Shown here: in pieces, positions 10,311-45,814 of the stretch
Layout of the letters: every line of letters starts with the position of its first letter
How positions within the stretch are numbered: position 1 is the stretch's first letter
Assembly (NCBI RefSeq): GCF_014489635.1
Contig: NZ_CP060828.1
Span: forward strand, 8,916,001 to 8,980,000
DNA length: 64,000 nucleotides
Direction of reading: 5' to 3'
From: Streptomyces roseirectus
GTDB lineage: Bacteria > Actinomycetota > Actinomycetes > Streptomycetales > Streptomycetaceae
Program-made: the position numbers and the translations under genes
Notes under the pieces: generated by a model
Seen by the model: only the letters and a program-made list of their open reading frames with translations
What the model was told of the DNA's origin: nothing
The model's database searches: none

Positions 10311-10733
10311 TCAGCTCACGGCGGGCTGGCACCCGGTGCAGACGCCGGTGAGTTCCACGGTGTGCTCGACCGCCGCGAACCCGGAGTCGGCGGCGATCCG
10401 TCCGGCCCATTCCTCGACGACGTCGGAGTCGACGGCGCGGCTGAGGCCGCAGGTGCGGCAGATGAGGTAGTGGCGGTGGGTGCTGTCGGGCCGCCATCGG
10501 TAGAGCCGTTCACCGGCGCCGGGTTGGGCGACGTCGACCGCGTCCGCGGCCTCCAGGTCGCGCAGCCCCCGGTAGACGGTGGTCAGCCCGATGCGGATGC
10601 CGTCGGCGGTCATGCGGGCGTGGAGGTCCTGCGCGGAGACGAAGTCGCGGCAGTTCGCCAGGGCTTCGAGGAGGGCCAACCGCTGCCGGGTGGGCCGTTG
10701 TTGGGTGGTTGGGACGCTCACAACCGGGTTCAC
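10311..10733 (-). CDS. zur: Fur-family metalloregulator, Zur-like
   Basis: 140-aa Fur-superfamily repressor. An N-terminal winged helix (about residues 14-80, RQRLALLEALAN through LTTVYRGLRDLE) is followed by a metal-binding dimerisation domain. Two CxxC pairs (C92/C95 and C132/C135) match the structural zinc site; H86, H88 and H124 are available for the sensing sites. The WAGRIAADSGF and ELTGVCTGC segments resemble actinobacterial Zur more than iron-sensing Fur. The listed start is GTG; an in-frame GTG at 10721 is also possible. It flanks a metallophore cluster, and a Zur-box-like motif lies 47 nt upstream of its start, so autoregulation is likely. Zur versus another Fur subtype is inferred, not proven. 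Confidence 0.8.
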   Translation of the reverse strand: MNPVVSVPTTQQRPTRQRLALLEALANCRDFVSAQDLHARMTADGIRIGLTTVYRGLRDLEAADAVDVAQPGAGERLYRWRPDSTHRHYLICRTCGLSRAVDSDVVEEWAGRIAADSGFAAVEHTVELTGVCTGCQPAVS

Positions 10734-10779
10734 CCCCAGCGCTGTGCCGGATCGCGGACCCCCTCACCGTAGATGAAAG

Positions 10780-10794
10780 TGAAAACCATGTCCA
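10780..10794 (-). promoter_or_regulatory. Putative Zur box upstream of zur
   Basis: Read on the reverse strand, TGGACATGGTTTTCA fits the 7-1-7 pattern TGnAnATGnTnnTCr shared with the boxes at 10847-10861 and 42694-42708. It matches the latter at 12 of 15 positions. It lies 47 nt upstream of the zur start, a suitable place for autoregulation. Zur binding is inferred from similarity to published Streptomyces Zur operators. Confidence 0.55.
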
Positions 10795-10845
10795 TGATGA
10801 CGGTGTGTCACGCGCCTGGCGCGCGAGGGTGACGCGGAACCGCTA

Positions 10846-10874
10846 TTGAAAATGATTGTCGATATGGCTAGGGT
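10846..10874 (+). promoter_or_regulatory. Promoter of the metal/metallophore uptake operon with Zur-box-like element
   Basis: TTGAAA (10846-10851) and TAGGGT (10869-10874) are separated by exactly 17 nt, a good sigma-70-type (HrdB) promoter. The 15-bp element TGAAAATGATTGTCG (10847-10861) overlaps the -35 box and resembles an actinobacterial Zur box. A repressor bound there would block polymerase. The start codon of the lipoprotein gene is 73 nt downstream of the -10 box. Confidence 0.65.
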
Positions 10875-10875
10875 C

Positions 10876-10893
10876 ATATACGTCGTATACCCG
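10876..10893. promoter_or_regulatory. Candidate TetR operator, copy 1
   Basis: ATATAC-GTC-GTATAC followed by CCG, immediately downstream of the -10 box. Sixteen of 17 bases (10877-10893) are identical to the motif in front of the MFS gene (16708-16724), and the half-sites form an imperfect palindrome. The likely binder is the TetR protein encoded between the two sites. A bound repressor here would act as a roadblock at the transcription start. Confidence 0.55.
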
Positions 10894-10946
10894 CGGACGT
10901 CGTTCCGTCTGGGTCTGGAACGTGATCAGGGGAAGAGAGCGACGCA

Positions 10947-12512
10947 GTGATAACTCGGCGTGGCGTACTGCGCGGTGTCACGGGGGCGGCGATGGGGATC
11001 GCCGCGGGTGGGGCGTTGGCCGCCTGCGGAGGCGGGGACGAGGCACCCGCCGCCGCGGGGGCGTCGGCCACCCCACGCAAGGGCGGAAGACTGAAGGCCG
11101 CGTTCATCGGGGGGAGCGCGGAGTCCACGGACCCCACGCTCGCCGCGAACGTCGGCATCGACTACGTGCGGGCCCGCCTCGTGTGGGACACGCTCGGCGA
11201 ACTGGACGGCGGCAAGGCGGTGTGGCGGCTCGCGGAGTCCGTCGAGCCCAACGCCGACGCGACCAGGTGGACCGTCCGCGTCAGGAAGGGCGTGACCTTC
11301 AGCGACGGCCGCCGACTCACCGCGAAGGACGTGCTGTTCAGCCTCCGCACCCTGGTGGAGAAGCGCAGTCCGCAGGGCGGGTTCATGACCCACCTCGACC
11401 TGAAGAACGCCCGGGTGAAGGACGAGCGGACCGTCGAACTGCCCCTCACCATGCCCGACGGCTTCTTCGACCTCGCCCTCGCGCACTCGATGTTCGTCTT
11501 CCCCGACGGCACCAAGGACCTGGCCAAGGCCGTGGGCAGCGGCCCGTACACGCTGAAGAAGTGGCAGGCGGGCCGCAGCGGCGTCCTCGTCCCGCGCGCG
11601 GACTACTGGGACGGCGACCAGGGCGGCCCGTACCTGGACGAGCTGGAGCTGGTGTCCGTCACGGACGCCGCCGCCCGCCTCAGCGGCCTCAAGTCCGGCC
11701 AGTTCGGCTACGCGGGCGGCCTCGGCCTCACCGCCGTCCGCACCGAGCGCGACAACGGCGCGCTGCGCATCGAACTGCCGCCGAAGGACCTCTGGGTCGA
11801 CCTCACCCTCACCATGAACCGCGCCCTGAAGCCGTTCACCGACGAACGCGTCGTACGGGCCGTGAAGCTGGCGCTCGACCGCGAGTCGCTGGTGCGGACG
11901 GTGACCCTCGGTCAGGGCGAGGTCGGCAACGACCTGGTGGGCGCGCACCAGCCGTACTTCGACACCGGCATCGCGCAGACCCCGCACGACCCCGAGCAGG
12001 CCAAGAGGCTGCTCGCCGAGGCCGGGGCGGACGGGCTGGCGGTCACCATCCGCACCAGCGACTACGACTACGGCACCGAGGAGAGCGCCGCCGCCGTCGT
12101 GCCGATGCTCGCCAAGGCCGGCATCAAGGCCGGCCTCGACAAGGTGCCCGCCGCCGACTACTACAGCGACTTCAGGACCATCCTCGCCACCCCGCTCCAG
12201 ACCGCCGCCTACCACCCCAACCCGCTGCCCCTGATGATCCGCACGTACTACGGATCCACGGCACCCTTCCCGCTCACCGGGACCAAGGACGCGGCACAGG
12301 CGGACCCGCTCATCGCGGCCATGAACCGCGCGACGGACGAGAAGGAACGCGCGGCACGGGTGGCGGACGTCCAGGAGTACCTGCACGAGCACGGCGGCGA
12401 CGCCCTGTTCGCACGGGTGCCGACGGTGTCCGGGGCGGCCAAGGCCACGCACGGCGTCAAGCCGCGCGGATACGCCGACTACCCCAGCCTGCGGGACGCG
12501 TTCGTCGAATGA
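10947..12512 (+). CDS. ABC transporter substrate-binding lipoprotein (SBP_bac_5)
   Basis: 521-aa family-5 extracellular solute-binding protein (peptide/nickel/opine-metallophore type, relatives of NikA, DppA and CntA). A GTG start gives a twin-arginine-like N-terminus (TRRG at residues 3-6) and a lipobox ending at Cys27 (LAAC), so it is probably a Tat-exported lipoprotein. The family signature appears as WTVRVRKGVTFSDGRRLTAKDV (about residues 110-130) and the C-terminal lobe is complete. It heads a translationally coupled operon with permease and ATPase genes. The Zur-box-like promoter and neighbouring metallophore biosynthesis suggest uptake of zinc or of the zinc-loaded metallophore; substrate identity is inference. 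Confidence 0.9.
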   Translation: MITRRGVLRGVTGAAMGIAAGGALAACGGGDEAPAAAGASATPRKGGRLKAAFIGGSAESTDPTLAANVGIDYVRARLVWDTLGELDGGKAVWRLAESVEPNADATRWTVRVRKGVTFSDGRRLTAKDVLFSLRTLVEKRSPQGGFMTHLDLKNARVKDERTVELPLTMPDGFFDLALAHSMFVFPDGTKDLAKAVGSGPYTLKKWQAGRSGVLVPRADYWDGDQGGPYLDELELVSVTDAAARLSGLKSGQFGYAGGLGLTAVRTERDNGALRIELPPKDLWVDLTLTMNRALKPFTDERVVRAVKLALDRESLVRTVTLGQGEVGNDLVGAHQPYFDTGIAQTPHDPEQAKRLLAEAGADGLAVTIRTSDYDYGTEESAAAVVPMLAKAGIKAGLDKVPAADYYSDFRTILATPLQTAAYHPNPLPLMIRTYYGSTAPFPLTGTKDAAQADPLIAAMNRATDEKERAARVADVQEYLHEHGGDALFARVPTVSGAAKATHGVKPRGYADYPSLRDAFVE

Positions 12513-12544
12513 GCCGGATGAGCCGCATGAGCCGGATGAGCCGC
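12509..12544 (+). repeat. 9-bp tandem repeat at the permease start
   Basis: Four copies of the unit ATGAGCCGG/C encode MSR repeated four times. Each copy offers an in-frame ATG, so translation could begin at any of four starts. The first ATG overlaps the upstream stop (ATGA). Confidence 0.9.
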
Positions 12545-13510
12545 GTGAAGAGCGTGCGGCGGATGCTGCCGAGGCCCGTACGCAGGATCGCCGGAGCCCT
12601 GCTGGTGCTGGCGGCGGTCTCGGTGCTGGTGTTCGCCGCCACCGAGGCCGCACCCGGCGACGCCGCCACCGCCCGGCTCGGCCCCGGCGCGGACGCCGCC
12701 CAGGTCGCGGGGCTACGGGCCGAACTCGGCCTGGACCGCCCCGCGCCCGTCCGGTACCTCGACTGGCTCGGGCACGCGGTGCGCGGCGACTTCGGCGTCA
12801 GCTACGCCAGCGGACGGCCGGTGGCCGACGTGGTGGCCGACCGGCTCGGCAACTCGCTCGTCCTGGGGGTGGCGGCACTGGCCGTGCTGGTGCCGCTCGC
12901 CGTCGGACTCGGCCTGTGGACCGGCCTGCGGGCCGGGCGGCGCGGTGACCGGCTGGTCTCCGGGACGGCACTGGGGCTGGCCGCCGTCCCGGAGTTCGTC
13001 ACCGGGGCCGTGCTGATGCTGGTGTTCGCGGCCGGGCTGGGATGGCTGCCCGCCGTCTCACTGCTCGGCGCGGGGCAAGGGCCGCTGGACCAGCCGGCCG
13101 TGCTGGTGCTGCCCGTCCTCACCCTGGTGTCCGTGTGCCTCGCGCAGAACCTCCGGCTCGTCCGGGCCGGCGTCGCGGAGGCGGCCCGGTCCGAGGCGGT
13201 GGAGGCGGCGCGGCTCAACGGGGTGCCCGAGCGGAGGGTCGCCCTGCGGCTCGTGCTGCCCGCCGGACTCGGGCCCGCCGTGCCGATGCTGGCCCGCTCG
13301 GCGACCTACCTTCTGGGCGGAGCCCTCGTCGCCGAGTCCCTGTTCGGCTATCCGGGCCTCGCCGCGCTCCTGGTCGACGCCACCGCCTCCCGGGACGTCC
13401 CCGTCGTCCAGGCCGTCGCCCTGCTCGGCGCCGCGCTCGCCGTGACCGCCAACCTCGCCGCCGACCTCGCCGTCCCGCTCCTCGACCCTGTGCAGAGGCA
13501 CCCGCGATGA
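12509..13510 (+). CDS. ABC transporter permease (NikB/DppB-like)
   Basis: 333-aa inner-membrane permease of the peptide/nickel family with about six transmembrane segments. The N-terminal ELGLDRPAPVRYLDWLGHAVRGDFGVSY region is the classic DppB/NikB signature. The cytoplasmic EAA loop (EAARLNGVPERRVALRLVLPAG) that contacts the ATPase is intact. The start overlaps the lipoprotein gene stop by 4 nt and lies in a four-fold MSR repeat. It should pair with the permease domain of the fusion protein encoded next. Confidence 0.92.
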   Translation: MSRMSRMSRMSRVKSVRRMLPRPVRRIAGALLVLAAVSVLVFAATEAAPGDAATARLGPGADAAQVAGLRAELGLDRPAPVRYLDWLGHAVRGDFGVSYASGRPVADVVADRLGNSLVLGVAALAVLVPLAVGLGLWTGLRAGRRGDRLVSGTALGLAAVPEFVTGAVLMLVFAAGLGWLPAVSLLGAGQGPLDQPAVLVLPVLTLVSVCLAQNLRLVRAGVAEAARSEAVEAARLNGVPERRVALRLVLPAGLGPAVPMLARSATYLLGGALVAESLFGYPGLAALLVDATASRDVPVVQAVALLGAALAVTANLAADLAVPLLDPVQRHPR

Positions 13511-15957
13511 CCCTCACGTCCGTACACGTACCCACGGACACCGGCCCTTTGACGGCCGGAGGCCGGGGCGGCGAGCGGCGGTGGCGTGGCCGGGCCGCAC
13601 TGGCCGTCCTGCTGCTGGTGTGCGCCGTGGCGCTGCTCGGGCCGCTGTTCGCGCCGCACGCCGTCACCGAACCGGTGGACATCCCGTACGCGCCCACGAG
13701 CGGCCGAGCACCGCTGGGCACCGACAAGCTCGGGTCCGACGTCCTCAGCCGCCTGCTGTCCGGCGGAGGCTCCCTGGTGCTGACCGGGCTCGCGGTGACC
13801 GCCGCGGTGTGCGCCCTCGGGGCGGCGGCGGGCATGACGGCCGCGTACCTCCGGGGGTGGACGGACACCCTCGTCCTCAGGACCGCCGACGTCCTGCTCG
13901 GGCTGCCCGCGTTCCTGCTGCTGAGCGTCGTGGTCGTGGCGACCGGGCGCGGCACGGCCGGTGTCGCGGTCGCGGCGGGGCTGATCCTGCTGCCCGAGAC
14001 GGTCCGGGTGGTGCGGGCGGCGACCCTGCGGATCCTCGGCCAGGACTACGTGGAGGTCGCCGTCGCACGCGGCGAGCGCCCGGCGTCCGTACTGGGGCGG
14101 GAGGTCCTGCCCAACCTCGCCCCCGTGCTGGCCGCCGACGCCGGGATCCGCTTCCTGGGCGCGGTGACCGTCGTCGCCACCGCCTCCTTCCTCGGCTACG
14201 GGCCCCAACCCCCGGCCGCCGACTGGGGGTTGATGGTCATGGAGAACCGCGACGGCCTGACCCTGCAACCCCTCGCCGTCCTCACGCCCGTCCTGCTCCT
14301 CCTGCTCCTGCTGCTGTCCACGAACCTCCTGCTGGACGCCGTCTTCTCGGGGCCGCGGGTGAAGGCGGCCGGACGCCGTGCGCCGGCCCCGGAAGCGCCG
14401 GGCCCGGCGGGCGCGCTGCTCGCCGTGCGGGCGCTGCGCGTCGAGACCGAGGACGGACATGCCGTGCTGGACGCGGTGGACCTGGACCTCGGGCCCGGCG
14501 AACTCCTCGCCGTGGTGGGCGAGTCGGGCAGCGGCAAGTCCACGCTGGCCCGTGCCGTCCTGGGGCAGGTGGCGGCCGGGCTACGGCACGCGGGCGGCGA
14601 GGTGTGGCTCGACGGGCGGGGCGTGCTGCGGCTGGACGAGAGGGAGGTGCGCAAGCTGCGGGCGTCCGTGTGCGGATACGTGGCCCAGGACCCGCGCACC
14701 GCGCTCTCGCCGCACCTGCGGGTGGACGCCCAGATCACCGAGGTGCTGCGGGCCCGCCAGGTGCCGAAGGCTCAGTGGCCCGAGGAGGTCGAGCGGTCGC
14801 TGCGGCTCGCGGGCCTCGGGCCCGGGTTCGTACGGCGCCGGCCGCACCGGCTGTCCGGCGGCCAGCGGCAGCGGGTGGCACTGGCGGTCGCGCTCGCCGG
14901 ACGGCCGCGCCTGCTGGTCCTGGACGAACCGACCAGCGCCCTCGACACCGTCACGGCGGCGGCCTTCCTCACCGACCTGACCCGCCTGCGCCGCGAGACC
15001 GGCACGGCGGTCCTGCTCGTGTCGCACGACCTCGGCGCCGTCGCCACGGTGGCGGACCGGGTGGTGGTCGTGGAGCGCGGGAGGATCGCCGCACATGCAC
15101 TGAGCGCTCCGGAGCCGGCGCCGACGCCGGTCGAGGACGGCCCGCCGCCCGCGTCCGAGCCGCTGCTCACCGCGAACGGCGTCCGGCTGCTCCGGCCCGC
15201 CCCGGTCCTGGACGGTGTGTCACTGACCCTGGGACCGGGCGACTGCCTGACCGTCGTCGGCCCCTCCGGCAGCGGAAAGTCCACGCTGCTCCGCTGCCTG
15301 GCGGGGCTGGAACGGCCGACGGGCGGGGACGTCCACCTCGACGGCCGGCCGCTGGCCCCGGACGTGCGCGACCGGAGCCGGCGCCAGCGGCTGCGGGTGC
15401 AACTCGTGCCCCAGGACCCGTACGGGTCACTCAACCCCCGCCACACCGTGGCCACGATCGTCGGCCGGCCGTTGCGGCTGCGCGGCGGAATACCGACGGA
15501 GGCTCAACCGCGCGAGGTGGAACGGCTGCTGGGCCTCGTCGGTCTTGACCCGGAACTCGCCGGACGGCAGCCCCAAGCCCTGTCGGGCGGCCAGCGGCAG
15601 CGGGTCGCGCTGGCGCGGGCCCTCGCGGCGGGCCCCGACGTGCTGCTGTGCGACGAGGTGACCAGCGCCCTCGACCCGTCCGTGGCGGCCGGCATCACCG
15701 CCCTGATCGCCCGGCTGCGCCGCGAACTCGGCCTCGCCGTCGTCATGGTGACCCACGACCTGTCGGTCGCCGCCCGACTCGGCGGACACGTCGCCGTCCT
15801 CGACGGCGGACTGATCCGCGAGACCGGCCCGGCGGGCCAGGTGCTGCGCCACCCGGAACACGCGGTGACACGCGCCCTGATCGCGGCCGTGCCACGACAG
15901 ACCGCCGAGCCGAGACCCGCCGACGCGGCGAAGGGGACCGGGGGAGAGGACCGATGA
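13507..15957 (+). CDS. Fused ABC transporter: permease plus two ATPase domains
   Basis: 816-aa polypeptide combining three proteins that are normally separate (NikC/DppC, NikD/DppD, NikE/DppF). Residues ~1-285 form a second permease (GTDKLGSDVLSRLL motif; EAA-like loop EVAVARGERPASVLGREVLPN). Residues ~300-540 form ATPase 1 (Walker A GESGSGKST at ~339, signature LSGGQRQRVALAVAL, Walker B LLVLDEPTSALD). Residues ~555-800 form ATPase 2 (Walker A GPSGSGKST at ~586, LSGGQRQRVALARAL, Walker B VLLCDEVTSALD). No internal stop or frameshift is present. The start overlaps the upstream permease by 4 nt. Both ATP sites look functional, so one copy plus NikB-like permease and lipoprotein could make a complete importer. 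Confidence 0.92.
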   Translation: MTLTSVHVPTDTGPLTAGGRGGERRWRGRAALAVLLLVCAVALLGPLFAPHAVTEPVDIPYAPTSGRAPLGTDKLGSDVLSRLLSGGGSLVLTGLAVTAAVCALGAAAGMTAAYLRGWTDTLVLRTADVLLGLPAFLLLSVVVVATGRGTAGVAVAAGLILLPETVRVVRAATLRILGQDYVEVAVARGERPASVLGREVLPNLAPVLAADAGIRFLGAVTVVATASFLGYGPQPPAADWGLMVMENRDGLTLQPLAVLTPVLLLLLLLLSTNLLLDAVFSGPRVKAAGRRAPAPEAPGPAGALLAVRALRVETEDGHAVLDAVDLDLGPGELLAVVGESGSGKSTLARAVLGQVAAGLRHAGGEVWLDGRGVLRLDEREVRKLRASVCGYVAQDPRTALSPHLRVDAQITEVLRARQVPKAQWPEEVERSLRLAGLGPGFVRRRPHRLSGGQRQRVALAVALAGRPRLLVLDEPTSALDTVTAAAFLTDLTRLRRETGTAVLLVSHDLGAVATVADRVVVVERGRIAAHALSAPEPAPTPVEDGPPPASEPLLTANGVRLLRPAPVLDGVSLTLGPGDCLTVVGPSGSGKSTLLRCLAGLERPTGGDVHLDGRPLAPDVRDRSRRQRLRVQLVPQDPYGSLNPRHTVATIVGRPLRLRGGIPTEAQPREVERLLGLVGLDPELAGRQPQALSGGQRQRVALARALAAGPDVLLCDEVTSALDPSVAAGITALIARLRRELGLAVVMVTHDLSVAARLGGHVAVLDGGLIRETGPAGQVLRHPEHAVTRALIAAVPRQTAEPRPADAAKGTGGEDR

Positions 15958-15978
15958 CGGCGAAACTAGGGTGGCCGC

Positions 15979-16623
15979 ATGCCGAGCACGACGACCGACA
16001 ACAGCGGACAGCGGCCCCGCACCGGGCTGAACCGGGCGGTCGTCGTCACGACCGGACGCCGGGTGGCACAGGCGGAGGGCCTGTCCGCGGTCACCCTGCG
16101 CCGGGTGGCGGCCGAACTCGGCGTGACCGCCATGGCCCTGTACCGGCACGTCGGCGACAAGCGCGAACTGCTCGTCGCGATGCTCGACGACGTGGCCGAG
16201 CAACTGGTCCTGCCGGACAGTACGGGACCGGCGCGGGAGCGGCTGGTCCTGGCGTTCCGCGCCCTGCACGACCATCTGACGGCCGAGCCGTGGGTGGTGG
16301 AAGTGCTGCGGGGCGGCGAGCTGTTCGGGCCGCGCGCGGCACGGTTCGTCGAACACGTACTGGCGCTCCTGGCGGAGGCCGGACTCGGGGACGAGCAGGC
16401 GGCGGACGCCTACTGGGCGCTGTGGTGGTACACCTACGGCCACCTGTCGTACCTGCCCGCCCTGCGGCCCGAGGGCCTGCCCGCCCGGCAGGAACTCATG
16501 GCCAGGGTCCGCATGGCCGAGCACCCCCGGCTGGGAGCACTGCTGTCCCGGCCGCCGCGCGAGGGCGCGGAGACCGAGGCGTTCGTACGGGGCCTGCGGG
16601 CCCTGCTGCGGGGCCTGCTGTGA
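15979..16623 (+). CDS. TetR family transcriptional regulator
   Basis: 214-aa repressor with an N-terminal helix-turn-helix (GLSAVTLRRVAAELGVTAMALYRHVGDKRELL) and a TetR_C-type ligand domain. It lies between two operons, both preceded by near-identical palindromic sites, which makes it their likely regulator. TAGGGT (15967-15972) lies only 6 nt before the ATG and there is no Shine-Dalgarno, which suggests a leaderless mRNA from its own promoter. The ligand is unknown; the apo- or metal-bound metallophore is one possibility. Confidence 0.88.
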   Translation: MPSTTTDNSGQRPRTGLNRAVVVTTGRRVAQAEGLSAVTLRRVAAELGVTAMALYRHVGDKRELLVAMLDDVAEQLVLPDSTGPARERLVLAFRALHDHLTAEPWVVEVLRGGELFGPRAARFVEHVLALLAEAGLGDEQAADAYWALWWYTYGHLSYLPALRPEGLPARQELMARVRMAEHPRLGALLSRPPREGAETEAFVRGLRALLRGLL

Positions 16624-16638
16624 CCACCGAACCTGTGT

Positions 16639-16665
16639 GATCCGCCCGCGCGCGTGCGGCGGATC
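16639..16665. terminator. Hairpin after the TetR gene
   Basis: Inverted repeat GATCCGCC/GGCGGATC (8-bp stem, 11-nt loop) 15 nt after the TetR stop and before the MFS promoter. Plausible terminator; no U-tract. Confidence 0.5.
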
Positions 16666-16724: not shown

Positions 16725-16750
16725 TGTCCTGAGCAGGGAGTTTGCTGACC

Positions 16751-18337
16751 ATGACCGAGGACATACCCGGCGGGCGGGGAGGCGAGCGCGGCAACGGCTG
16801 GCTGCTCGCCGTGACCTCGCTCGCCGCGGTCCTGATGACGCTCGACATCACCGTCGTCAACGTCGCCCTACCCCAGATCGCCACCGACCTCGACGCCGGA
16901 CTGACCGGCCTGCAATGGGTGGTGAACGCCTACACCCTCGTCTTCGCCGCGCTCCTGCTGCCCGCCGGCGCGCTCTCCGACCGGACGGGCCGGCGCCGGA
17001 TGTTCGCCGCCGGGGTCGCCGTGTTCACCGCCGCGTCGGCCGGCTGCGGCGCCGCGCCCGGCGTCGGGACGCTGATCGCCTGCCGGGCGCTCCAGGGCCT
17101 GGGCGGGGCGCTGGTGATGTCCACCGCGCTCGCCCTCATCGCCGGCGCCTACGAAGGGCGCCGCCGGCAGTCGGCGATCGGCATGTTCTCGGCGGCGGGC
17201 GGCGCCGCGGCCGCCCTCGGCCCGCTGGTGGGCGGAGTGGTCGTCGAGGGAATGGACTGGCGCTGGATCTTCTACATCAACCTTCCCGTCGGCCTGTTGA
17301 TCCTGGCCGCGACCGCGCTGAAGGTGACCGAGACCCAGGGGCAGGCCGGACCGCCGCCCGCCGGACGGTTCGACCTCGTCGGGCTGCTGCTCGCCGCCGG
17401 GGCGCTCCTCGGCGTCAACTACGGCTTGGTCACCGGCCCTTCGGAGGGCTGGACGGACGCTTCCGCGCTGGTGCCGCTCGTGGGCGGGGCGCTGCTGGTG
17501 CCCGCCTTCGTGGCGTGGGAGGCCCGGCGCGGTGACGCGGCCCTGTTCGACGTGCGGCTGCTGCGGGTGCCGTCCTTCACCGGCGCGATCGTGCTCAGCT
17601 TCGTGTGCCGGGTCGTCAGCTTCGGCGTCCTGCCGTTCCTGATCCTGTGGCTGTCGGGGATGCTCGGGCACAGCCCGCTGCAGACCGGTCTGAGGCTGCT
17701 CGCGATGACGGCGTTCATCATGCTGGTCGCCCCGTTCAGCGGGCTCTTCCTCAAGGCGCTGCCGATGCGGGCCGTGATGGCGCTCGGCACGGCGATCACG
17801 GCCGTCGGACTGCTGACCATGGCCCGGGTCGGCCCCGACGACTCCTGGCTGGTGATGCTGCCGGGGCTCGTCCTGCTCGGCATCGGCGGGGCGATCGCCT
17901 TCCCGCCGCTGATGGGGATCGCCGTCGGCGTCGTACCGCCGCAGCGGGCCGGGATGGCGTCCGGCATGACCAACACGTTCTTCCCGCTCGGCACCGCGAC
18001 CGGCGTCGCCGTGTTCGGCGTGGTGTTCAGCTCGCGGATCGGCGGCGACCTGGACGACGCGCGCCTCGCCGCGCTCCAGGTGCCCGCCGGGTCCCGGCAG
18101 GCGGTGCGGGACGCGGTGGAGGCCGGGCAGTTCGGGCAGGTGGAGCGGATGCTCCCGGCGGCGGCACGGGAACCGGTGCTGGACGCGGCCCGGACCGCCT
18201 TCACCGGCGGGCTCGCGCAGATCTGCGCGGTCGCCGCGGCGGTCAGCCTGTTCGCCGCCGTCGCCTCCTGGGTGCTGATCCGCGAGAAGGACCAGCTGAC
18301 GGCGGGCGCGAAGGAGCCGTCGGATGCCGCTGCCTGA
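16751..18337 (+). CDS. MFS transporter, DHA2 (EmrB/QacA) type
   Basis: 528-aa drug/metabolite exporter with 14 predicted membrane helices. Family motifs include LDITVVNVALPQI in helix 1, LSDRTGRRR in the first cytoplasmic loop, and GLGGALVMSTALALI followed by GPLVGGVVVEGMDWRWIFYINLPVG in helix 5-6. The ATG is preferred over an in-frame TTG at 16742 because AGGGAG lies about 10 nt before it. The gene follows a TetR regulator and its putative operator, and overlaps the downstream methyltransferase gene by 14 nt. A role in exporting the metallophore is plausible but not shown. Confidence 0.9.
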   Translation: MTEDIPGGRGGERGNGWLLAVTSLAAVLMTLDITVVNVALPQIATDLDAGLTGLQWVVNAYTLVFAALLLPAGALSDRTGRRRMFAAGVAVFTAASAGCGAAPGVGTLIACRALQGLGGALVMSTALALIAGAYEGRRRQSAIGMFSAAGGAAAALGPLVGGVVVEGMDWRWIFYINLPVGLLILAATALKVTETQGQAGPPPAGRFDLVGLLLAAGALLGVNYGLVTGPSEGWTDASALVPLVGGALLVPAFVAWEARRGDAALFDVRLLRVPSFTGAIVLSFVCRVVSFGVLPFLILWLSGMLGHSPLQTGLRLLAMTAFIMLVAPFSGLFLKALPMRAVMALGTAITAVGLLTMARVGPDDSWLVMLPGLVLLGIGGAIAFPPLMGIAVGVVPPQRAGMASGMTNTFFPLGTATGVAVFGVVFSSRIGGDLDDARLAALQVPAGSRQAVRDAVEAGQFGQVERMLPAAAREPVLDAARTAFTGGLAQICAVAAAVSLFAAVASWVLIREKDQLTAGAKEPSDAAA

Positions 18338-22665: not shown

Positions 22666-22675
22666 GACGGGAAGA

Positions 22676-36500: not shown

Positions 36501-39500
36501 CGACGGGTGCCGCGAGCGGCGCCGGCAGCTCCCCGGCGAGGAGTTCGGCGTCGACCACGCAGCGGGCGCGCGACGCGTGCAGCACGCGGGCGCGGCGCAC
36601 CGGCGGCTGGTCGACACCGACCGGCACATAGGCGGCGCCCGCCGCCAGCACGCCCAGGACGGCGGCGATCTGGTCCGGCCCCTTGGGCAGCGACACGGCC
36701 ACCGTGTCGCCGGGCTCGATCCCGCGCTCGCGCAGCGCGGCGGCGATCCGCAGGGCGTGCGCGCTCAGCTCGCCGCGCGTCGCCGCGCCGTCCTCGCCCC
36801 ACAGCAGCGCGGGGGCGTCAGGCTCGGCGGCGGCCCGCTCGAAGAACGGCACGTGCAGGGCGTGTCCGTCGCCCGGGAGCCCCGTCGCGTTGGCCTCGTC
36901 GCGGACCGCCCGCTGCCCGGCGGGCAGCAGTTCGGGGCGCGGCGCCTGCCAGTCGCCGTCGGCGAGACGGTCGAGGAGCCGGCCGAACGCGTCGGCCATC
37001 GTCTCGACCAGCCCCTCGGGGAACAGGTCGCGCACCGCGTCCCACTGGTGGCGCAGCGATCCGCCCCGGCCCTCGTAGACCTGGAGGTCCAGCCACACCT
37101 GCGGGGTCTGGCTCACGCCCCACACCCGGGGCGGGAAGCCGTCGGGCGCGTCCATGGACACGCCGTCGTCGACGCCGAGGGCGCTGGTGAACACCACGGG
37201 GACGGTCGCGTCCCGCTCACCGCGCGTCCGGGCCAGCTCGCGCATCACCCACACCGCCGACACCGAGCGGTGGTCGAGGTCGCGCCACAGCCGCTCCTGC
37301 AGGCCGCGCACCCGGGTCAGCCAGCTCTCGCCGGGCTCCGGGTGGTGGGCGGCGAGCAGCAGGGACGTGAAGTCGCCGAGCACCCGGTTGATGTGCGGGT
37401 GCACCTCCTGCCGGTCGAACAGGGTGAGGTTGACGGTCAGTTCAGGGCCCTCGCTCCACGCGCCCAGCACCTCCGCGTACGCGGCGAGGAGCAGCGTGGA
37501 CGGGGTGATGCCGTGCTCGCGCGCCCGTTCCTTCAGCCGCGTCCAGCGCTCGGCCGTCAGCTCGCCGGGCGTGCGCGTGAACCGGGGCCGGTCGAGCAGG
37601 GCCGGATCCCGCGCGAGCGGCAGGCGGGGCGCCGGCGGCAGCGACGGCAGCCGTTCGAGCCAGTAGGCCCGGTCCGCCTCCAGCGCCTCGGGCGCCGGCC
37701 GCACCGAGGTGAGGTAGTCGCGGAACGTCAGCTCCACCGGCGGGAGTTCGGCGTCGGGGTCGGCGTACAGGGTGCCCAGTTCGGTGAAGACGGTCATCAT
37801 GCTGAGGCCGTCCAGGATCAGGTTGTCGAGGCTGACGCCGATCCGGGTGCGGTCGTCGCCGTGGCGTACGGCCCGGACGTCGAACAGGGGCCAGCGGGCG
37901 GGGTCGAGGACCTGGTGGGACATGTCCTCGCGCAGGGCGGCGAGCTGTTCCTCGCCTTCCGCCACGGGGATGGTGAACTCCGGTACCTCGGCGAGGACGT
38001 GCTGCCGGCCTTCCTCGTCGAAGACGGCCCGCAGCATCGGATGCCGGTCGATCAGCCGCCGCCAGGCCCGCTCCAGACGGGGGAGGTCGACCGCGACGCC
38101 GTCGAACTCCGAGTAGTAGTGGGAGCCGACCCCGCCGAGCCGCATCTCGCCGGCCCGGCCCAGCCAGTACGCCCGCTGCACGTCGGTGGCCGGGAACGGC
38201 TCGTGGGCGCGCTCCGGGTCGGCGGCGAGCCGGGTCTCCGGCCCGCTCTCGCCCAGGGTGAGCGTGCCGGCGTAGTCCTTGAGGACGGGACGGGTGAACA
38301 GGGCGGCGATCCTCGCGCCGCGCACCCCGCGCTCGCCGAGCCGGTGCAGCATGCGGGTGGCGAGCAGGCTGTCGCCGCCGAGGGCGAAGAAGTCGTCCTC
38401 CCGGTGCACGGCCTGGACGCCCAGCAGCTCCCGCCACACCTCGGCGACGCGTTCCTCGACCCCCGGCGCGGGCCGGGTCCCGGACGTCGGGGCCGCCTCG
38501 GCCCGGCCGGTGTGCCGGGCGAGCAGGTCGCGGACGGCACGCCGGTCCACCTTGCCGTTCGCGGTCAGCGGCATGAGCGGCAGGACGACCAGCCGGTCGG
38601 GAACCATGTACGAGGGGAGCAGCCCGGCGACCGCGTCCCGGACCGCGCCCGGCTCGCACGGCGCGGCCCGTGGGTCGCGCACCGCCCGGATGAGCAGCGC
38701 CGGTTCCTGGTCGCGTACGGCGGTGTCCGCGTCGGTGAACCCGTGGGCGCGCAGCAGTTGCTCCCACGCCGGGGCCGGCAGCAGGGGGCTGCCGGCGGCC
38801 CGCCGGGCGGGGTCGGCGTCCGCGAAGGCCCGGGTCGGCAGGGCGGCGCAGATCAGGCCGAGCGGCGGCAGGGCGCCCTGTTCGACGGCGAGCAGCAGCC
38901 CGCCGGGCGCCAGCAGGGCCGCCGCCTGGGCGACTCCGGCGGCCGGGTCGTCGAAGGCGTGCAGCGAGCCGAGGGCGAGGACGGCGTCGAACGCCCCGGG
39001 CAGGTGGTCGGGCAGCACGCCGTGCGGGAGGGCCTGGTAGCGGACCGGATGTCCGGCCAGCCGCTCGCGCGCCCGGTCGAGCAGGGTGGCGGACGTGTCG
39101 AGGAGGGTGAACTCGACGGCGTCGTCCGCGAGTTGGCGTATCACCCGCTGTGCGCCGAGGCCGCCGCGCGCTCCGACGACCGCGACCCGGGGCGCACGCC
39201 CCAGCTCCCGCGCGAGCCCTCGCAGGGCGTCGGCACAGTCCTCGGCGGCCGGCGCGCTCGCGGGCAGCGCGTCCAGGGCCGCTTCCGGGGCAAGGACGGG
39301 ATCGTCGAGGAGTTCGAGCGGGTCGCGTTCGCCGGTGAGCATGGCCCGCAGGTCGGGCAGGTGCAGCAGGAGACGGTCGAGGACGGGTTCGAGGCGGGTT
39401 CCGGCGACGCGCCGTGCCACGGCCTGCTCGTCGGCGTCGGCCGGCGCGGTGCGTCCGTGGCGGCCCAGCCAGTCCCGCCAGAGGTCCCTGACCCCGCGCA

Positions 39501-42500
39501 TCCGCGCGTCCGGTCGCAGGCCGGGGGTGAGGATCCGGCCGAGGACGTGGGCGACGACCTCCGTCTCCAGCGGATCCGGGCGCGCGGCCGACACCGAGGT
39601 CCGCACGCCCGCGTCGGCCGGCTCGGTCGCGCGCGTCGCGGGCGCGCAGGCGGCCACGAGCATGTGCCGCTCACCGCCGGTGACCGCCGCGACCGCCCGG
39701 CCCACTCCGGGCGCCCGCTCCAGCGCGGCCTCGACCTCGCCCAGCTCCACCCGGTGACCGCGCAGCTTGACCTGCGAGTCGGCGCGGCCCAGGAACTCGA
39801 CGACGGCACCCGGCCGGTAGCGCGCGAGGTCACCGGTGCGGTACCAGCGTCCGCCCTCGTGCGTCACGAACCGGTCGGCCGTGCGCTCCGGGTCGCCCAG
39901 ATAGCCGTCGGCCACCCCGGCGCCGCCGATCCACAGCTCGCCCGGCACCCAGTCGGGGCAGTCCCGGTCCCGGGCGTCGACGACGCGACAGCGCACGTTG
40001 CGCAGGGGAGTGCCGTACGGGATCGCGGCCCAGTCCTGCGGCACCGCCCCGCCGGTGATCTCGCACACCGTGGAGTGGATCGCCGTCTCCGTGGTGCCGC
40101 CGAGCGCGACGAACCGGCAGCCGGGCGCCCGTCCGGCGAGCCGGCCCGGCAGGTCGACGCCCACCCAGTCGCCGCCCAGCAGGACGACGCGCAGCCCGGC
40201 GAGCCCGTCCCCGCCGCTGCTCAGCAGCATGTCGAGGACGGAGGGCACGCAGTTGAGGACGGTGACGCGGTGCCGGGCCATCAGCGCGTGCCAGCGTGCC
40301 GCGTCCCGGCGCTCCTCCTCTCCGACGAGGACCACCGCGCCACCGGCGGAGAGCGGTCCGAAGAGGTCGTAGACGGACAGGTCGAAGTCGAGCGCGGACA
40401 GCGCGAACGTGCGGTCGCCCTCGCCGATGCCGAAGCGCTGGTCGAGGTCGTCGACCGTGTTGCGGGCGGCGCGGTGCGGGACGACGACGCCCTTGGGCTC
40501 GCCGGTCGACCCGGAGGTGAAGATGACGTACGCCGGATCGCCGTCCGCCACCGTCACCGCCTCCTTGACCGGCGCGTGCGCCGACGCGGCGGACACGGTC
40601 AGTGCCGCCACGCCGTCGGGCAGCGGCTCGGCGGCCTCGTGCACGAACGCGGCACGGACACCGGCCGTGCGCAGGACGCGGTCGCGGCGGGCCGGCGGAT
40701 GGGCGGACCCGACCGGCACATAGGCGGCGCCCGTGACCAGGCAGCCGAGGACGGCGGCGATCTGGTCGGGCCCCTTGGGCAGGCAGACCGCGACCCGGTC
40801 GCCCGGTCCGACGGCGTGCGCGGCGAGGGCGGCGGCGATCCGCCGGGCCCGGTCGGCGAGTTCGCCGTACGACAGAGAGTCGCCCTCGCCCCACAGCAGC
40901 GCGGGCCGATCGGGCTCGCGGTCGGCGCGGTGCAGGAAGTCCTCGTGGAGGAGCAGCCCGGTGCGCGGGCCGTCCGTGTCGTTGGCCCGCGCGCGGGCCG
41001 CCCGCTGGTCGTCCGGCAGCAGGTCCGGGACGGGCTCGCGCCACGGGGTGTCGGACGCCGCGAGCCGGTCGACGAGCGTGCGGTACGCGGCGAACATCGC
41101 GTCCAGCATCCCGTCGGGGAACGCCTGCTCCAGCGCGTCCCAGTTGACGAGGAGCCCGCCGTCCAGCTCGGTGACCTGGGCGTCGAGCCACACCTGGGGG
41201 CCCTGGGAGATGATCCACACGGGCCGTCCGAAGCAGGCGCGCACGTCCTCGGAGAACAGCTCGCCCAGGTTCAGGGCGCTGGTGAACACGACGGGTGCGA
41301 GGACCCGTCCGCCGTCGGGCTGGGCCCGGTTGAGGTCGCGCAGGACCTCGACGCCGGAGTAGGAGGCGTGGGCGGCGTCGTCGAGGAACCGTTCCTGCGT
41401 GGCGCGGGCCCGGTCCTGGAAGGAGGCGGTGCCGCAGACGTCGGCGGCGAGCAGGACGGATCCGGTGAAGTCGCCGACGAGCAGGGGCACGTCGGGGTGC
41501 AGCGGTTCGCGGTCGAACAGGGGCACGTTGAGGAGGAAGCGCTGCTCGGCGCTCCAGGCCGCGAGGACCTCGCAGTAGGCGGCGGCCAGCGCCATGGCCG
41601 GGGTGACGCCGTGCCGGTGGGCGCGGGCGAACAGGGCCTCGCGCTGCTCGGGCGGCAGCCAGTGGTGGCGCCGGGTGACGCGGGGGTGCTCCGCCGTCGA
41701 CGCGCCGGGCAGGACGGGCAGGGCGGGGGCGCCGGGCAGGTCCGGCAGGCGGGCGGCCCACCAGGCGGCGTCCCGCCTCAGGTCGCGCGCCCGGTCGGCG
41801 GAGGCGGCGCGGTCGGCGAGGTAGCGGCGGTAGCTGTAGCCGATGGGGGAGAGGGGGCCGGTGCCGCGGTAGAGCGTGGCCAGGTCGGCGAGCAGGACCC
41901 GCAGGCTGAGCGCGTCGGCGGCGAGCATGTCGAGGTTGAGGTGCGTACGGGTGCGGCCGTCCGGCAGCAGGGACAGCTGGACGTCGAAGACCTCGCCGTC
42001 GCCGACCCGCAGCATGCGGTGCGACAACTCGTCGCGCAGCCGCTCCAGCCGCCGGGCGGCCTCGTCCTCGGGCAGTGCGCGGAGGTCGTGCACGCGCAGT
42101 CCCGGCCACTCGGCGGCGGTGGGGGTGTGCTGGCGGCCGTCGTCGCCGAACACGGCACGCAGTTGCGCGTGCCGGGCGAGCAGGGCGCGTACGGCCTGCT
42201 CCAGGCGCCGCGGGTCGACGCCCTCGCCGTCGAACTCGTTGTAGAAGTGCGCGGCGACACCGCCGAGTTGGTGTTCCTTGCCGCGCCCGACCCAGTAGGC
42301 GTGCTGCATCAGCGCCAGGTCGAAGGGCGAGGTCTCGTCGGCGGATATCTCAGGGGCCGGGGCGGCGGCGGGGGTGACGTCGTCGGTACATCGCTCGGCG
42401 GCGAGCGCGCTCCAGGCGTGCAGGGTGGGTGTGCGGGCGAGTTCGGCGAACGTCAGGCGGATGCCGTCCCGGCGCAGGGCGCCGGCCACGGTCATCAGGC

Positions 42501-42618
42501 GGATGGAGTCGAGCCCCTGCTCGATGAGGTTGTCGCCCGCGTCGACGTGCTCGGCGTCGGGGCCGAGCCAGTCGGTGAGCAGCGGGCGGATCGATCGCAG
42601 CGGATCGCGTTGTGACAC
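33505..42618 (-). CDS. NRPS A: ArCP-Cy-A(E/MT-like)-PCP-Cy-A-PCP-Cy-PCP
   Basis: 3037-aa synthetase from a GTG start. Order: aryl carrier (Ser38 in EQGLDSIR), Cy1 (~98-525; DMLAADALS at 230-238), A1 (~555-985) with an inserted methyltransferase-like domain (~1015-1310) of the kind that acts as epimerase in PchE/Irp2, PCP1 (Ser1417), Cy2 (~1473-1895; DNLILDGLS 1598-1606), A2 (~1915-2395), PCP2 (Ser2443), Cy3 (~2500-2900; DNLILDGLS 2624-2632), PCP3 (Ser2982). The last module has no A domain, as in Irp2, so PCP3 must be loaded in trans. Specificity residues: A2 D-L-Y-N-L-S-M-I-W (Cys-like); A1 D-L-Y-N-L-G-L-I-H, which departs from Cys codes. It starts the chain on salicylate and builds up to three rings. 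Confidence 0.93.
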
Positions 42619-42692
42619 TTCGTTACCAGCCTTGCCTGTGGGGTGCCCGGGAGGCCGGGACGGCGCGGATACGGAGCGATGGCATCCAGTTA

Positions 42693-42722
42693 TTGAAAAT
42701 GGTATTCATTTCCTACAATACT
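42693..42722. promoter_or_regulatory. Divergent promoter with Zur-box-like element between NRPS and ligase operons
   Basis: The 15-bp element TGAAAATGGTATTCA (42694-42708) is an imperfect 7-1-7 palindrome sharing TGnAnATGnTnnTCr with two sites near zur. For the forward operon it overlaps a TTGAAA -35 (42693-42698); TACAAT (42714-42719) or AATACT (42717-42722) could be the -10. It lies 76 nt upstream of the NRPS A start and 69 nt upstream of the ligase start, so one bound repressor could silence both directions. Zur control of the homologous coelibactin promoter region has been reported in S. coelicolor. Confidence 0.7.
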
Positions 42723-42776
42723 TTCGGGGCCGGGAACAAGTCCCCGGCGAGAACGTCACAGAAGGGATGGATCCAC

Positions 42777-44420
42777 GTGCTCGACGGCTGTACGCCCTGG
42801 CCCGATGAACTCGCCGCCCGCTACCGGGCATCCGGCCACTGGCGAGGGGAAACGTTCGACCGGCTGCTGCGCGCCTGGGCCCGCGCCCACCCGCACCGCA
42901 CCGCCCTCGTCCACCGCGAACGGCGGCTGAGCTACGCCGGTCTTGAGGCCGCCGCCGACCGTGTCGCGCGCAGGCTCGCCGGGCTCGGGATCGCGGCCGG
43001 GGACCGGGTGGTCCTCCAACTGCCCAACATCCCCGAGTTCTTCGCCGTGTTCTTCGCCCTCCAGCGGCTCGGCGCCGTGCCCGTCCTGGCGCTCCCGCTG
43101 CACCGGCGCAGCGAGATCGTCCACCTGTGCCGGCTGTCCGAGGCCGTGGCGTACGTCGTCCCGGACGTCCACCAGGGCTTCGACCACCGGGAGTTGGCCG
43201 CCGAGGCGCTGAAGGAGGCCCCCGGCCTGCGGCACGTCCTGGTCGTGGGCGACCCGGGCCCCCACACCCCGCTCGACGGGCCCGGCACCGACGTGCCCGC
43301 CGGCCCCGACGACCCCTCGGACGTGGCGCTGCTGCTCGTCTCCGGCGGCACCACCGGCCTGCCCAAGCTGATCCCGCGCACCCACGACGACTACGCGTAC
43401 AACGTCCGCGCGAGCGCCGAGACGTGCCGCTTCGGACCGGACACCGTCTACCTCGCCGCGCTGCCCGTCGCCCACAACTTCGCGCTCGGCTGCCCCGGCG
43501 TCCTCGGCGCCCTGCACGCGGGCGGCACGGCGGTCCTCACCGACGAACCCGACCCCGACGCCGCCTTCGCCCTCATGGAACGCGAACGCGTGACCGCGAC
43601 CGCCCTGGTGCCCCCGACCGCCCGCATCTGGGCGGCGGCGACCGAATGGGCCGAGGCGGACCTCACCGCGCTGCGGCTCCTCCAGGTCGGCGGCGCCCGC
43701 CTGCTGCCCGAGCACGCCCAGCAGGTGCGCGACGCCTTCGGCCCCGTCCTCCAGCAGGTGTTCGGCATGGCCGAGGGCCTGCTCAACTACACCGAACCCG
43801 ACGCCCCGCAGGACGTCGTCCTGCACACACAGGGCCGCCCGCTGTCCCTGGACGACGAGATCCGCGTCGTCGACGAGCACGACCGCGACGTCCCGCCCGG
43901 CACGACCGGACGGCTCCTCACCCGCGGCCCCTACACCCTGCGCGGCTACTACCGCGCCGACGAGCACAACGCCACCGCCTTCACCGCCGACGGCTACTAC
44001 CGCACCGGCGACCTCGTACGGCGCACCCCCACCGGCCATCTGGTCGTGGAGGGCCGCGTGAAGGAGCAGATCAACCGCGGGGGCGACAAGGTGGCCGCCG
44101 CCGAGGTCGAGGAACAGCTCGCGCACCACCCGGCGGTCCTCGACACGGCCGTCGTGCCCGTCCCCGACGACCTGCTCGGCGAACGCACCTGCGCGTTCGT
44201 CGTCCCCAGGCCCGGCGCCACCGCGCCCGGCAGGAACGAGGCCGCCGCCTTCCTCCGCGAACGCGGCCTGGCCCCGTACAAGGTCCCCGACCGGATCGAG
44301 ACGCTCGACGCCCTCCCGGTGACGGCCGTCGGCAAGACCGACAAGAAGGCACTGACGGAACTCGCCCGCAAGCTCGCCGCCGGAGGTTCGGCGCGCAAGG
44401 AAGGGAACCCCCGCTCATGA
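42777..44420 (+). CDS. Salicylate-AMP ligase (YbtE/DhbE family)
   Basis: 547-aa free-standing aryl-acid adenylating enzyme that activates salicylate and loads it on the aryl carrier of NRPS A. The N-terminal [20 protein letters not shown] is diagnostic of DhbE/EntE/YbtE enzymes. Core motifs are [35 protein letters not shown] (aryl-pocket region with Asn), [21 protein letters not shown] and the C-terminal GKTDKKAL with the catalytic Lys. A GTG with a GAAGGG element ~10 nt upstream is preferred; the longer frame from 42612 would cover the promoter. Coupled by 4-nt overlap to the salicylate synthase. Confidence 0.94.
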
Positions 44421-45814
44421 CCAGCCCCACCACGATCGCCGGTACGTCCTGGGAGGGCTGGGCCGAAGCCCTGCCCCCGTCGTGTCCCGAGCACGTCGTC
44501 GAATCCCCCGCCGACCCGGCGGAGGCCGCCGTGCGCCTCGCCGGCTCCGGCCTCGGCGGCGAGTACGTCGTCTACGAACGGGCCGGGACCTGGACCTACG
44601 CCGCCGCTCCCGCCGCGACGCTCACCCTGGACGCCGAGTCGGTCGTCGCACGCTGCGGGAACCAGGCGGTGGTCCAGCCCCTCGGCGCGGCGCCGCTGGA
44701 GCAGGTCGCCGAGGCCCTGGCCCGGCTGCCGCACCAGGACTGGCGGGTGTACGGCTGGGCCGCCTTCGAACTCGCCCACCTCCTGCACGCCGACACCGGG
44801 AACCCCGGGGACGCCCCCCTGCTCCACCTCATGCTGCCGGCCATAGAGGTCACCCTCACCCCGGGCACGGCACGCATCCGGACGGCCGACCCGGAACACC
44901 TGCCGCTCCTCGCCAAAGCCCTGGCCGGTTCCACGAGTTCGGCCGGCACGGGGCTCACCGACGCGGAGAACCTGGTGCGGTCCGCGCCGGGCCCCTACCG
45001 GCACGCCGTCGCCCGCACCGTGGCCGACATCCAGGCCGGGCTCGTCCAGAAGACCGTGCTCTCCCGCCCCCTGCCCCTCCCCTCGGCCCCCGATCTGGGC
45101 GCCACCTACCTCACGGGCCGCCGCGCCAACACCCCCGCCCGGTCCTTCCTGCTCGACCTGGGCGGCTGGCGGGCGGCGGGCTTCAGCCCCGAGACCGTCG
45201 TCGAGGTCGAGGCGGCCGGCCGCCGCGTCTCCACCCAGCCGCTCGCCGGCACCAGAGCCCTCGGCACGAACGCCGAGGACACCGCGCGGCTGCGCGCCGA
45301 ACTCCTCGGCGACCCCAAGGAGATCCACGAACACGCGCTCTCCGTGCGCCTCGCCGTCGACGAACTCACCGCGATCTGCCGCCCGGGCACGGTCGTCGTC
45401 GAGGACTTCATGACGGTCCTGGAACGCGGATCGGTCCAGCACCTCGCGTCCCGCGCCGCCGGACAGCTCGCCGAGGACCGCAGCCCGTGGGACGCGTTCG
45501 CCGCGCTGTTCCCCGCCATCACCGCCACCGGCTGCCCGAAACCCGAGGCCCTGCGCACCATCAGCCGCCACGAGAGCGAACCGCGCGGGCTGTACGCCGG
45601 AGCCGTGTTCACCGCCGACGCCGCCGGCTCCCTCGACGCGGCACTCGTCCTGCGCACGGTCTTCGAACGCGACGGCCGCGGCTGGCTGCGCGCGGGCGCC
45701 GGGATCATGGGCCAGTCGACCCCCGAGCGCGAATGGGAGGAGACCTGCGAAAAACTCCGCAGCGTCGCCCCGCACCTGCACCTGCGCCCGGAGACACCGC
45801 CCGCGCAACCATGA
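44417..45814 (+). CDS. Salicylate synthase (Irp9/MbtI/YbtS family)
   Basis: 465-aa chorismate-utilising enzyme that converts chorismate through isochorismate to salicylate and pyruvate. Family blocks: [88 protein letters not shown] and [27 protein letters not shown]. The EIHEH and C-terminal acidic residues are the Mg ligands of this family. The ATG overlaps the ligase stop by 4 nt. It supplies the NRPS starter, so the island needs only chorismate and amino acids. Confidence 0.94.

Follow-up and report, generated by a model that had tools for sequence, protein, structure and literature searches.

Positions 10311-45814 of a 64,000-nucleotide stretch of the Streptomyces roseirectus chromosome (C1:8916001-8980000 of a single-contig genome of 9.95 Mb, called the window below) constitute a coelibactin-family island, in which genes for synthesis, export and uptake lie in one block. 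The island would make, export and re-import a salicyl-capped polyazoline zinc metallophore of the coelibactin/sorangibactin family, under repression by the canonical Zur of the genome and with a linked Zur paralogue as a sensor that uses only its D-site. We give this reading a probability of about 0.7, and infer both the product class and the zinc regulation from sequence.

Coelibactin is a long-standing Zur-regulated orphan that has been called a zincophore. Its product has never been isolated, attempts to do so having failed (PMC10127202; PMC3430247). The island offers a slightly longer line of the coelibactin type, and its cysteine-type thioesterase (TE) points to a labile thiolactone and therefore suggests a purification strategy. 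The linked paralogue makes it testable whether a Fur protein of the Zur branch in Streptomyces can sense zinc without the hinge site, a form of sensing so far described for cyanobacteria.

The sequence-only reading of a coelibactin-like island holding uptake, export and synthesis is confirmed by the gene and domain content (Table 1) and by relatives with the same layout. These are five other Streptomyces genomes (G007, G314, G220, G319 and G097), in which the shared gene set has protein identities of about 60-96%; the O-methyltransferase gene is present in all five.

A Zur paralogue beside the biosynthetic genes

Six FUR matches were found in the genome. One of them, at C1:6457078-6457425, is a canonical Zur with C79, H84-H87, C90, C93, E105, H122, C130 and C133 (S. 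coelicolor numbering) and a Zur box ca 2.7 kb away; its C79/H85/H87 set rules out the linked Fur gene as the main Zur of the genome. The closest relative of the island protein in the PDB is S. coelicolor Zur (3mwm, 1.8e-30), which we take to be SCO2508. The gene had been described from the sequence as Zur-like, which is right as to the family, but it was overlooked that this is a paralogue in which the hinge sensing site (M-site) is lost: R79, R85 and Y87 replace C79, H85 and H87, the other canonical residues being retained.

PMC11077047 names C79 and H87 as M-site and H84 and E105 as D-site residues, and also names H36. The Fur fold, the Zur-type DNA-reading helix and the structural Cys4 site that mark actinobacterial Zur proteins are all present in the paralogue. 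We take H85, H86 and H122 to be further zinc ligands. The paralogue was also modelled with AlphaFold (mean pLDDT 80, pTM 0.55); by E-value the model fits 3mwm and 7vo0 best, but it is no guide to the hinge geometry.

A profile built from six paralogue proteins was run on 392 Streptomyces genomes, with a cut of 161 bits placed by eye between 161.9 and 160.3, below which diverged copies would be missed. It gave 79 matches in 72 genomes (hand count), and 50 of these were tabulated as protein, made up of the 30 top-scoring loci and 20 selected from further down, linked copies among them. R79 and Y87 were found in all 50, with R85 in 47 and Q85 in three, which means that the M-site ligands are lost throughout; D65, H84, H86, E105, H122 and the four cysteines are kept in all 50, and position 36 is His in 44 and Tyr in six. 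Canonical Zurs have C79/H85/H87 in 9/9 cases and none of the changes of the paralogues.

The paralogues form a separate branch apart from canonical Zur (100/100), with long branches inside, which also includes L095, a Saccharothrix protein on a long branch whose residues differ. The type occurs mostly in Streptomyces, but also in Actinacidiphila (L069), and an Actinomadura protein is listed at 69% identity. From a phylum sample of 296 genomes 29 loci were read (eight from the same genus, 21 from outside), and 28 of them keep C79/H85/H87, five of these differing at H36 or at a Cys. The one that does not, L249 from outside the genus, has R79/R85/H87; it lies in a genome of another family of the class (G448) with three Zur-like matches, and is a possible intermediate towards the HRHY type of Table 1. 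We met no report of a second or M-site-less Zur in Streptomyces in the literature searched, most subscription journals being outside reach, and the linked regulator would represent a Zur subfamily unremarked there.

The Zur of Synechococcus WH8102 (SynZur; 7ne9) has no site 2 and senses via a site-3-like position, salt bridges of Arg62 and Arg78 replacing site 2 and Arg78 lying between the ligands D77 and H79 (PMC9337993). In the paralogue the hinge site 2 is likewise missing and an Arg lies between two site-3 ligands, which leaves site 3 as the sole candidate sensory site; judged from sequence only, it has H84-R85-H86 and R79, D65 is kept and the site-3 ligands are complete. We propose that the paralogue is a local zinc sensor that would use only its D-site. 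A wider joint reading, which we hold tentatively and at somewhat less than even odds, is that Streptomyces evolved, apart from cyanobacteria, a second kind of Zur, D-site-sensing with an Arg relay (H84-R85-H86) and rid of the hinge zinc site, placed repeatedly beside zincophore islands and zinc-starvation operons with one threshold per island, the product of the present island being a four-ring, homocysteine-released relative of coelibactin.

We have also considered that the linked protein is zinc-blind, that is, a constitutive binder of Zur boxes or an antagonist pairing with the canonical Zur, which sets a basal level and does no sensing. The consistent loss of the M-site ligands and the retention of the dimerisation Cys4 site would fit this, as would the fact that a C79S change at the M-site of S. 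coelicolor Zur virtually abolished promoter binding (PMC6103462). However, His84, His86, Glu105 and His122 of the D-site, which a zinc-blind protein would not need, are kept in 50/50 copies, and SynZur senses with a site at that position alone (PMC9337993). We consider this scenario unlikely, though one to be taken seriously.

The genomic company of the gene is in favour of the reading given at the outset. Among the 392 genomes, the paralogue occurs together with a gene like srbE of the sorangibactin cluster in 18, compared with 8.8 expected (p 6e-4); SrbE-like matches over 150 bits number 51 in 48 genomes (hand count). The distance between the two is ≤26 kb in 11 of the 18 (G000, G220, G319, G316, G338, G223, G306, G334, G359, G271 and G345) whereas the two are not that close in the other seven (G037, G297, G337, G314, G097, G215 and G152). 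Random placement would put about 0.1 of 18 within 26 kb, a figure that is weakened by shared ancestry and chromosome-arm clustering. Because their ancestry is partly shared, the 11 linked copies are not 11 independent events; by eye they fall in several places of the tree, some forks of which are weak. Imine reductase and TE matches lie beside the SrbE-like gene in nine of the 11 linked genomes, G338 not being among those examined.

Around 20 other copies (19 genomes), the neighbours include CobW/G3E in 15, ZnuA in 11, an ABC ATPase family in 11, an ABC-3 permease in seven, L28 in five and S18 in four, each family being represented by one Pfam-scanned member; some of the ABC ATPases resemble exporters. 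CobW, ZnuABC and L28/S18-type genes belong to the classic Zur regulon (table in PMC6103462). Of 30 copies, 15 have Zur-like boxes with ≤3 mismatches within their 3.4-kb loci, compared with 0/15 control pieces of the window, although some of these boxes do not adjoin the gene and the window itself supplies one of the loci.

Three further observations concern these copies. A second M-site-less paralogue of the same genome (G000:C1:8894264-8894665; L171:10265-10669) lies ca 32 kb from the island copy, beside ZnuA, ABC and ABC-3 homologues. In L209 (G196), a paralogue adjoins ABC exporter-like genes and a salicylate synthase 65% identical to that of the island, and this is possibly another linked metallophore cluster, outside the SrbE-like count. 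Boxes just before genes of the HRHY type (for example in L174, L176, L178, L183 and L187) often have a TGGA/TCCA half-site (TGAAAATGAAATCCA-like), which is perhaps a variant operator.

Domain order and the extra module

From Pfam matches and motifs, the first nonribosomal peptide synthetase (NRPS1) reads ArCP-Cy-A-(MT-like)-PCP-Cy-A-PCP-Cy-PCP and NRPS2 reads TubC_N-Cy-A-MT-PCP-TE, MT being a methyltransferase domain. The pair thus has four Cy domains vs three A domains, with an ArCP-Cy start and a Cys-nucleophile TE end. This agrees with the "up to four azolines" expected earlier from the sequence, where the A-less Cy-PCP module and the Cys-type release TE had been missed.

Specificity residues were taken from an alignment to PheA, giving DLYNLGLIH for A1, DLYNLSMIW for A2 and DLYNLSLIW for A3, the A domain of NRPS2. 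We take the A2 and A3 codes to be of the Cys type, and A1 to carry the G/H pair of Thr codes. The S-adenosylmethionine motif is intact in the MT of NRPS2 and degenerate in the MT-like insert of A1; aberrant inserts of this kind are epimerases in PchE and HMWP2. The Cys motif of the TE is common to the window, the five close relatives and G246, a genome discussed next. A Cys-TE is essential for sorangibactin A and has also been noted for coelibactin (PMC10127202).

The cluster of G246 (8.63 Mb) has a P450 that equals CYP105N1 (3tyw) at 357/358 residues, and for this reason we treat it as representing the coelibactin locus in the S. coelicolor group. The salicylate synthase, ABC pair, type II TE, imine reductase, SrbE-like gene, both NRPSs, ligase and importer all have counterparts there, while its fetched stretch gave no match to the O-methyltransferase, TetR or MFS genes. 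Its NRPSs have no A-less module and no match to the MT insert, so that the domain order, Y1 A1 M1 Y2 A2 Y2 Y4 A3 M2 TE in the window and Y1 A1 Y2 A2 Y4 A3 M2 TE in G246, differs from that of coelibactin proper (S. coelicolor type). The island P450 shares only 31% identity with the CYP105N1-type enzyme of G246, and CYP105N1 (3tyw/4fxb) is not among the best 60 of its 546 PDB matches. In G246 the importer permease and the ATPase are matched by separate pieces, compared with the permease-ATPase fusion of the window, and the one Zur-like match of that genome is at the canonical level.

With the rest of the line collinear with G246 and no A domain in Cy3-PCP3, the island could be an ordinary coelibactin orthologue in which the extra Cy-PCP is idle and skipped, the product being coelibactin apart from tailoring. 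This we regard as quite unlikely, since Cy3 retains its DxxxxDxxS motif (DNLILDGLS) and PCP3 its GGDSL, and the module is kept in the five complete relatives and in 8/8 close named loci. An alignment search of genome contigs with the SrbE-like protein gave 110 relatives, and the best 80 loci, which were kept, range from Actinomycetota to Sporomusa, Paenibacillus, Azospirillum and Burkholderia. The NRPS1/NRPS2 junction is readable in 49 of the 80, the other 31 having another order or being cut. The last NRPS1 module has an A domain in 36 of the 49 and is A-less in 13 (hand count), which makes the A-less form a minority subtype but not unique; the 13 are the eight close Streptomyces loci plus L048, L060, L065, L066 and L087, of which L065 may be cut. 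The island is a variant of the coelibactin kind, and its product is likely a zinc metallophore.

Zinc or iron

Two boxes with ≤2 mismatches lie in the two key promoters (10847-10861 and 42694-42708), compared with 0.02-0.03 matches expected in the shuffled window. In the whole genome, seven places match at this level, these two included, and a backward-read control pattern matches at two. Boxes with ≤3 mismatches are found at the importer and ligase/NRPS promoters in 5/5 relatives, and at the ligase/NRPS promoter in G246. The wiring looks conserved, as S. coelicolor Zur binds the SCO7676 and SCO7681/7682 promoters (PMC5472717). Together with homology, the Zur-like boxes support the zinc link claimed in the sequence-only reading, as a prediction.

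Siderophores of the salicyl-azoline class, yersiniabactin and pyochelin among them, bind iron, and the product could be chiefly an Fe(III) carrier, with the zinc link secondary. The nearest characterised product, sorangibactin, is repressed by iron and is itself an Fe(III) ligand (PMC10127202), which means that the coelibactin/sorangibactin family is not zinc-only. On the other hand, both promoters of the island have Zur-like boxes, no DtxR/IdeR-type iron box was found in the window at ≤5 mismatches (a 19-mer), the linked regulator is on the Zur branch, and the coelibactin genes of S. coelicolor are Zur targets (PMC5472717). A mainly iron-carrying product is on this account distinctly unlikely. 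That the island is a decayed or silent relic at the chromosome arm, as the failed isolation of coelibactin itself might suggest, is hardly credible, the reading frames being open, the catalytic motifs kept and the same gene set present in the relatives.

Proposed pathway

We now turn our attention to how the island might work as a zinc metallophore system. Chorismate would be turned into salicylate, which after activation would be attached to the ArCP of NRPS1. The four Cy domains would then condense and cyclise three Cys and one further residue, either Thr or Ser. As the third Cy-PCP has no A domain, it would be loaded in trans by another one, as is the case for the A-less Cy-PCP in HMWP2 of yersiniabactin. 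The imine reductase would reduce one ring, methylation would take place on at least one nitrogen, and the P450 may oxidise the oxazoline. The Cys-type TE would free the chain, perhaps onto homocysteine as in sorangibactin. Export would take place via the ABC pair and the MFS protein, and the metal complex would be re-imported by the solute-binding protein (SBP)/permease/ATPase system. The zinc-bound canonical Zur, encoded elsewhere in the genome, would repress both operons at the Zur boxes. The linked paralogue, whose hinge zinc site has given way to arginines like that of Synechococcus Zur, might for this reason respond to a different zinc range, or tune the repression of the island and of itself.

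It is important to point out that several observations weigh against this picture. The A1 code leaves Thr vs Ser undecided, and sorangibactin, as said, is an iron-repressed Fe(III) binder. The paralogue may not bind DNA at all, given how poorly the C79S variant of S. coelicolor Zur binds (PMC6103462), and its D-site consists of three His and one Glu, compared with the Asp-His2-Cys of SynZur. The paralogue is within 26 kb in only 11 of the 48 genomes with an SrbE-like match over 150 bits (hand count), and one of these, G316, gave neither an imine reductase nor a TE match and seems to be of a different NRPS type. In the fetched stretches of the five close relatives, three have no paralogue, a Fur gene being close by only in G220 and ca 9 kb off in G319; the genome of G007 has none at the score used, the copy of G314 is 366 kb away and that of G097 is on another contig. 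Finally, the SBP side of G246 gave no box at ≤3 mismatches, and in G220 four weak sites resembling iron boxes (4-6 mismatches) lie past the island, at 39617-44339.

Gene calls and neighbouring genes

Open reading frames (ORFs) were chosen by codon-position GC and then scanned with Pfam, NCBIfam serving as a second library. The gene list of the sequence-only reading was reproduced, each gene being placed where it had been put, except that a ligase start near 42777 is more probable than one at 42612.

Table 1. Features of the island (window positions).
Feature	Position	Strand	Basis
Fur-family gene, Zur paralogue, HRHY type (M-site lost; D-site and Cys4 kept)	10311..10733	-	Pfam FUR, 77 bits; residue comparison
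Zur-like box, 3 mismatches, 47 nt before Fur-family gene	10780..10794	-	box identical in G220
Zur box, 2 mismatches, 86 nt before SBP gene	10847..10861	+	pattern scan
Solute-binding lipoprotein SBP_bac_5, nickel/peptide type	10947..12512	+	Pfam, 217 bits
Importer permease BPD_transp_1	12509..13510	+	Pfam
Importer permease fused to two ABC ATPase domains	13507..15957	+	PF00528 and 2x PF00005 within one ORF
TetR-family regulator	15979..16623	+	Pfam
DHA2-type MFS exporter	16742..18337	+	Pfam; TIGR00711 over cut-off
ABC exporter half (ABC_membrane and ABC_tran), YbtP/Q-like position, start uncertain	18689..20911	+	Pfam
Second ABC exporter half	20881..22665	+	Pfam
Stand-alone O-methyltransferase-family protein PF00891	22729..23757	-	Pfam
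Type II thioesterase	23802..24575	-	PF00975, 182 bits
Cytochrome P450, not close to CYP105N1	24572..25672	-	Pfam
Thiazolinyl imine reductase, Irp3/SrbI-like	25669..26757	-	Pfam Irp3-like_C; TIGR01761, 352 bits vs cut-off 189
SrbE-like saccharopine-dehydrogenase-fold protein with low-complexity insert	26754..28097	-	Pfam; homologues and alignment
NRPS2	28094..33526	-	Pfam domains and motif reading
TE active-site Cys codon (motif GYCLGG)	28751..28753	-	motif reading
NRPS1	33505..42618	-	Pfam domains and motif reading
A-less cyclisation module Cy3-PCP3 within NRPS1	33565..35181 (approximate borders)	-	domain reading
Methyltransferase-like insert in first A domain	38689..39591 (approximate borders)	-	degenerate SAM motif
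Zur box, 2 mismatches, 76 nt from the NRPS1 start and 69 nt from the divergent ligase start	42694..42708	+	pattern scan
Salicylate/2,3-DHB-AMP ligase	42777..44420	+	Pfam; TIGR02275, 664 bits, under cut-off 724
Salicylate synthase	44417..45814	+	Pfam Chorismate_bind; TIGR03494, 457 bits vs cut-off 325

The best NCBIfam matches of the ligase are 2,3-dihydroxybenzoate (DHB)-AMP ligase families, under cut-off, and those of the SBP are to NikA-type nickel and CntA/staphylopine-binding families, all far under cut-off. The SrbE-like oxidoreductase and imine reductase genes adjoin; the profile of the former gives only weak matches in the PDB. Its Gly/Ser/Arg-rich insert varies in length, and several relatives are without it.

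A SAM-dependent methyltransferase gene (PF04672; window 9742-10497, minus strand) adjoins the Fur-family gene. Directly beyond the other end lies a Wadjet type II anti-plasmid system (48065-56134, minus strand) with strong PADLOC matches for JetA2, JetB2, JetC2 and JetD2, and at 56264-59801 (minus strand) there is a row of polyprenyl synthetase, squalene/phytoene synthase family and ABC transporter genes.

Comparison with known systems

The coelibactin locus of S. coelicolor (SCO7676-7692) has in common with the island the salicylate synthase, ligase, two NRPSs, SrbE-like gene, imine reductase, type II TE, ABC exporter pair, importer genes, Cys-TE and Zur control, the last through predicted boxes in the island. 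The island adds the A-less Cy-PCP, the MT-like insert in A1, the O-methyltransferase, TetR and MFS genes, and differs in its P450, its linked Zur paralogue and its permease-ATPase fusion. The importer had also been regarded as an addition relative to coelibactin, but SCO7677-80 belong to the known locus (PMC3430247) and G246 has homologues, which rules out its novelty.

Yersiniabactin and pyochelin lines have, like the island, an ArCP-Cy start, an MT-like insert in an A domain and an imine reductase. The island differs from these lines in having no polyketide synthase module, four Cy domains and a Cys-TE. Tetroazolemycins, considered as the product, were rejected, as they are dimers, each half of which has a single oxazoline and a single N-methylthiazolidine (PMC3707159).

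No characterised cluster with the same domain order, and thus none with a different known product, was found in the literature searched, in keeping with the earlier expectation that the product is not a standard known siderophore. The nearest is the sorangibactin cluster (Srb) of Sorangiineae MSr11367, in which SrbC has seven and SrbD five domains (PMC10127202), compared with ten and six in the island when the MT-like insert and TubC_N are counted. The island has counterparts of SrbB, K, C, D, E, H and I and of the Cys-TE; the Srb cluster differs in its iron repression and LysR regulator. Its product is a phenol-oxazole-(N-Me-thiazolidine)2-homocysteine thiolactone, for which the imine reductase, the VOC protein SrbJ and, as part of an SrbE/F/G deletion, SrbE are essential (PMC10127202). 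By analogy, sorangibactin would be the best chemical model for the island product.

As to the regulator, the paralogue and S. coelicolor Zur (3mwm, 7vo0) have a common fold, helix-turn-helix core, Cys4 site, D-site and mostly H36, with the M-site C79, H85 and H87 changed to R, R/Q and Y. Unlike SynZur, with which it shares the absent hinge site, the paralogue has a canonical Zur in the same genome and sits on the actinobacterial Zur branch.

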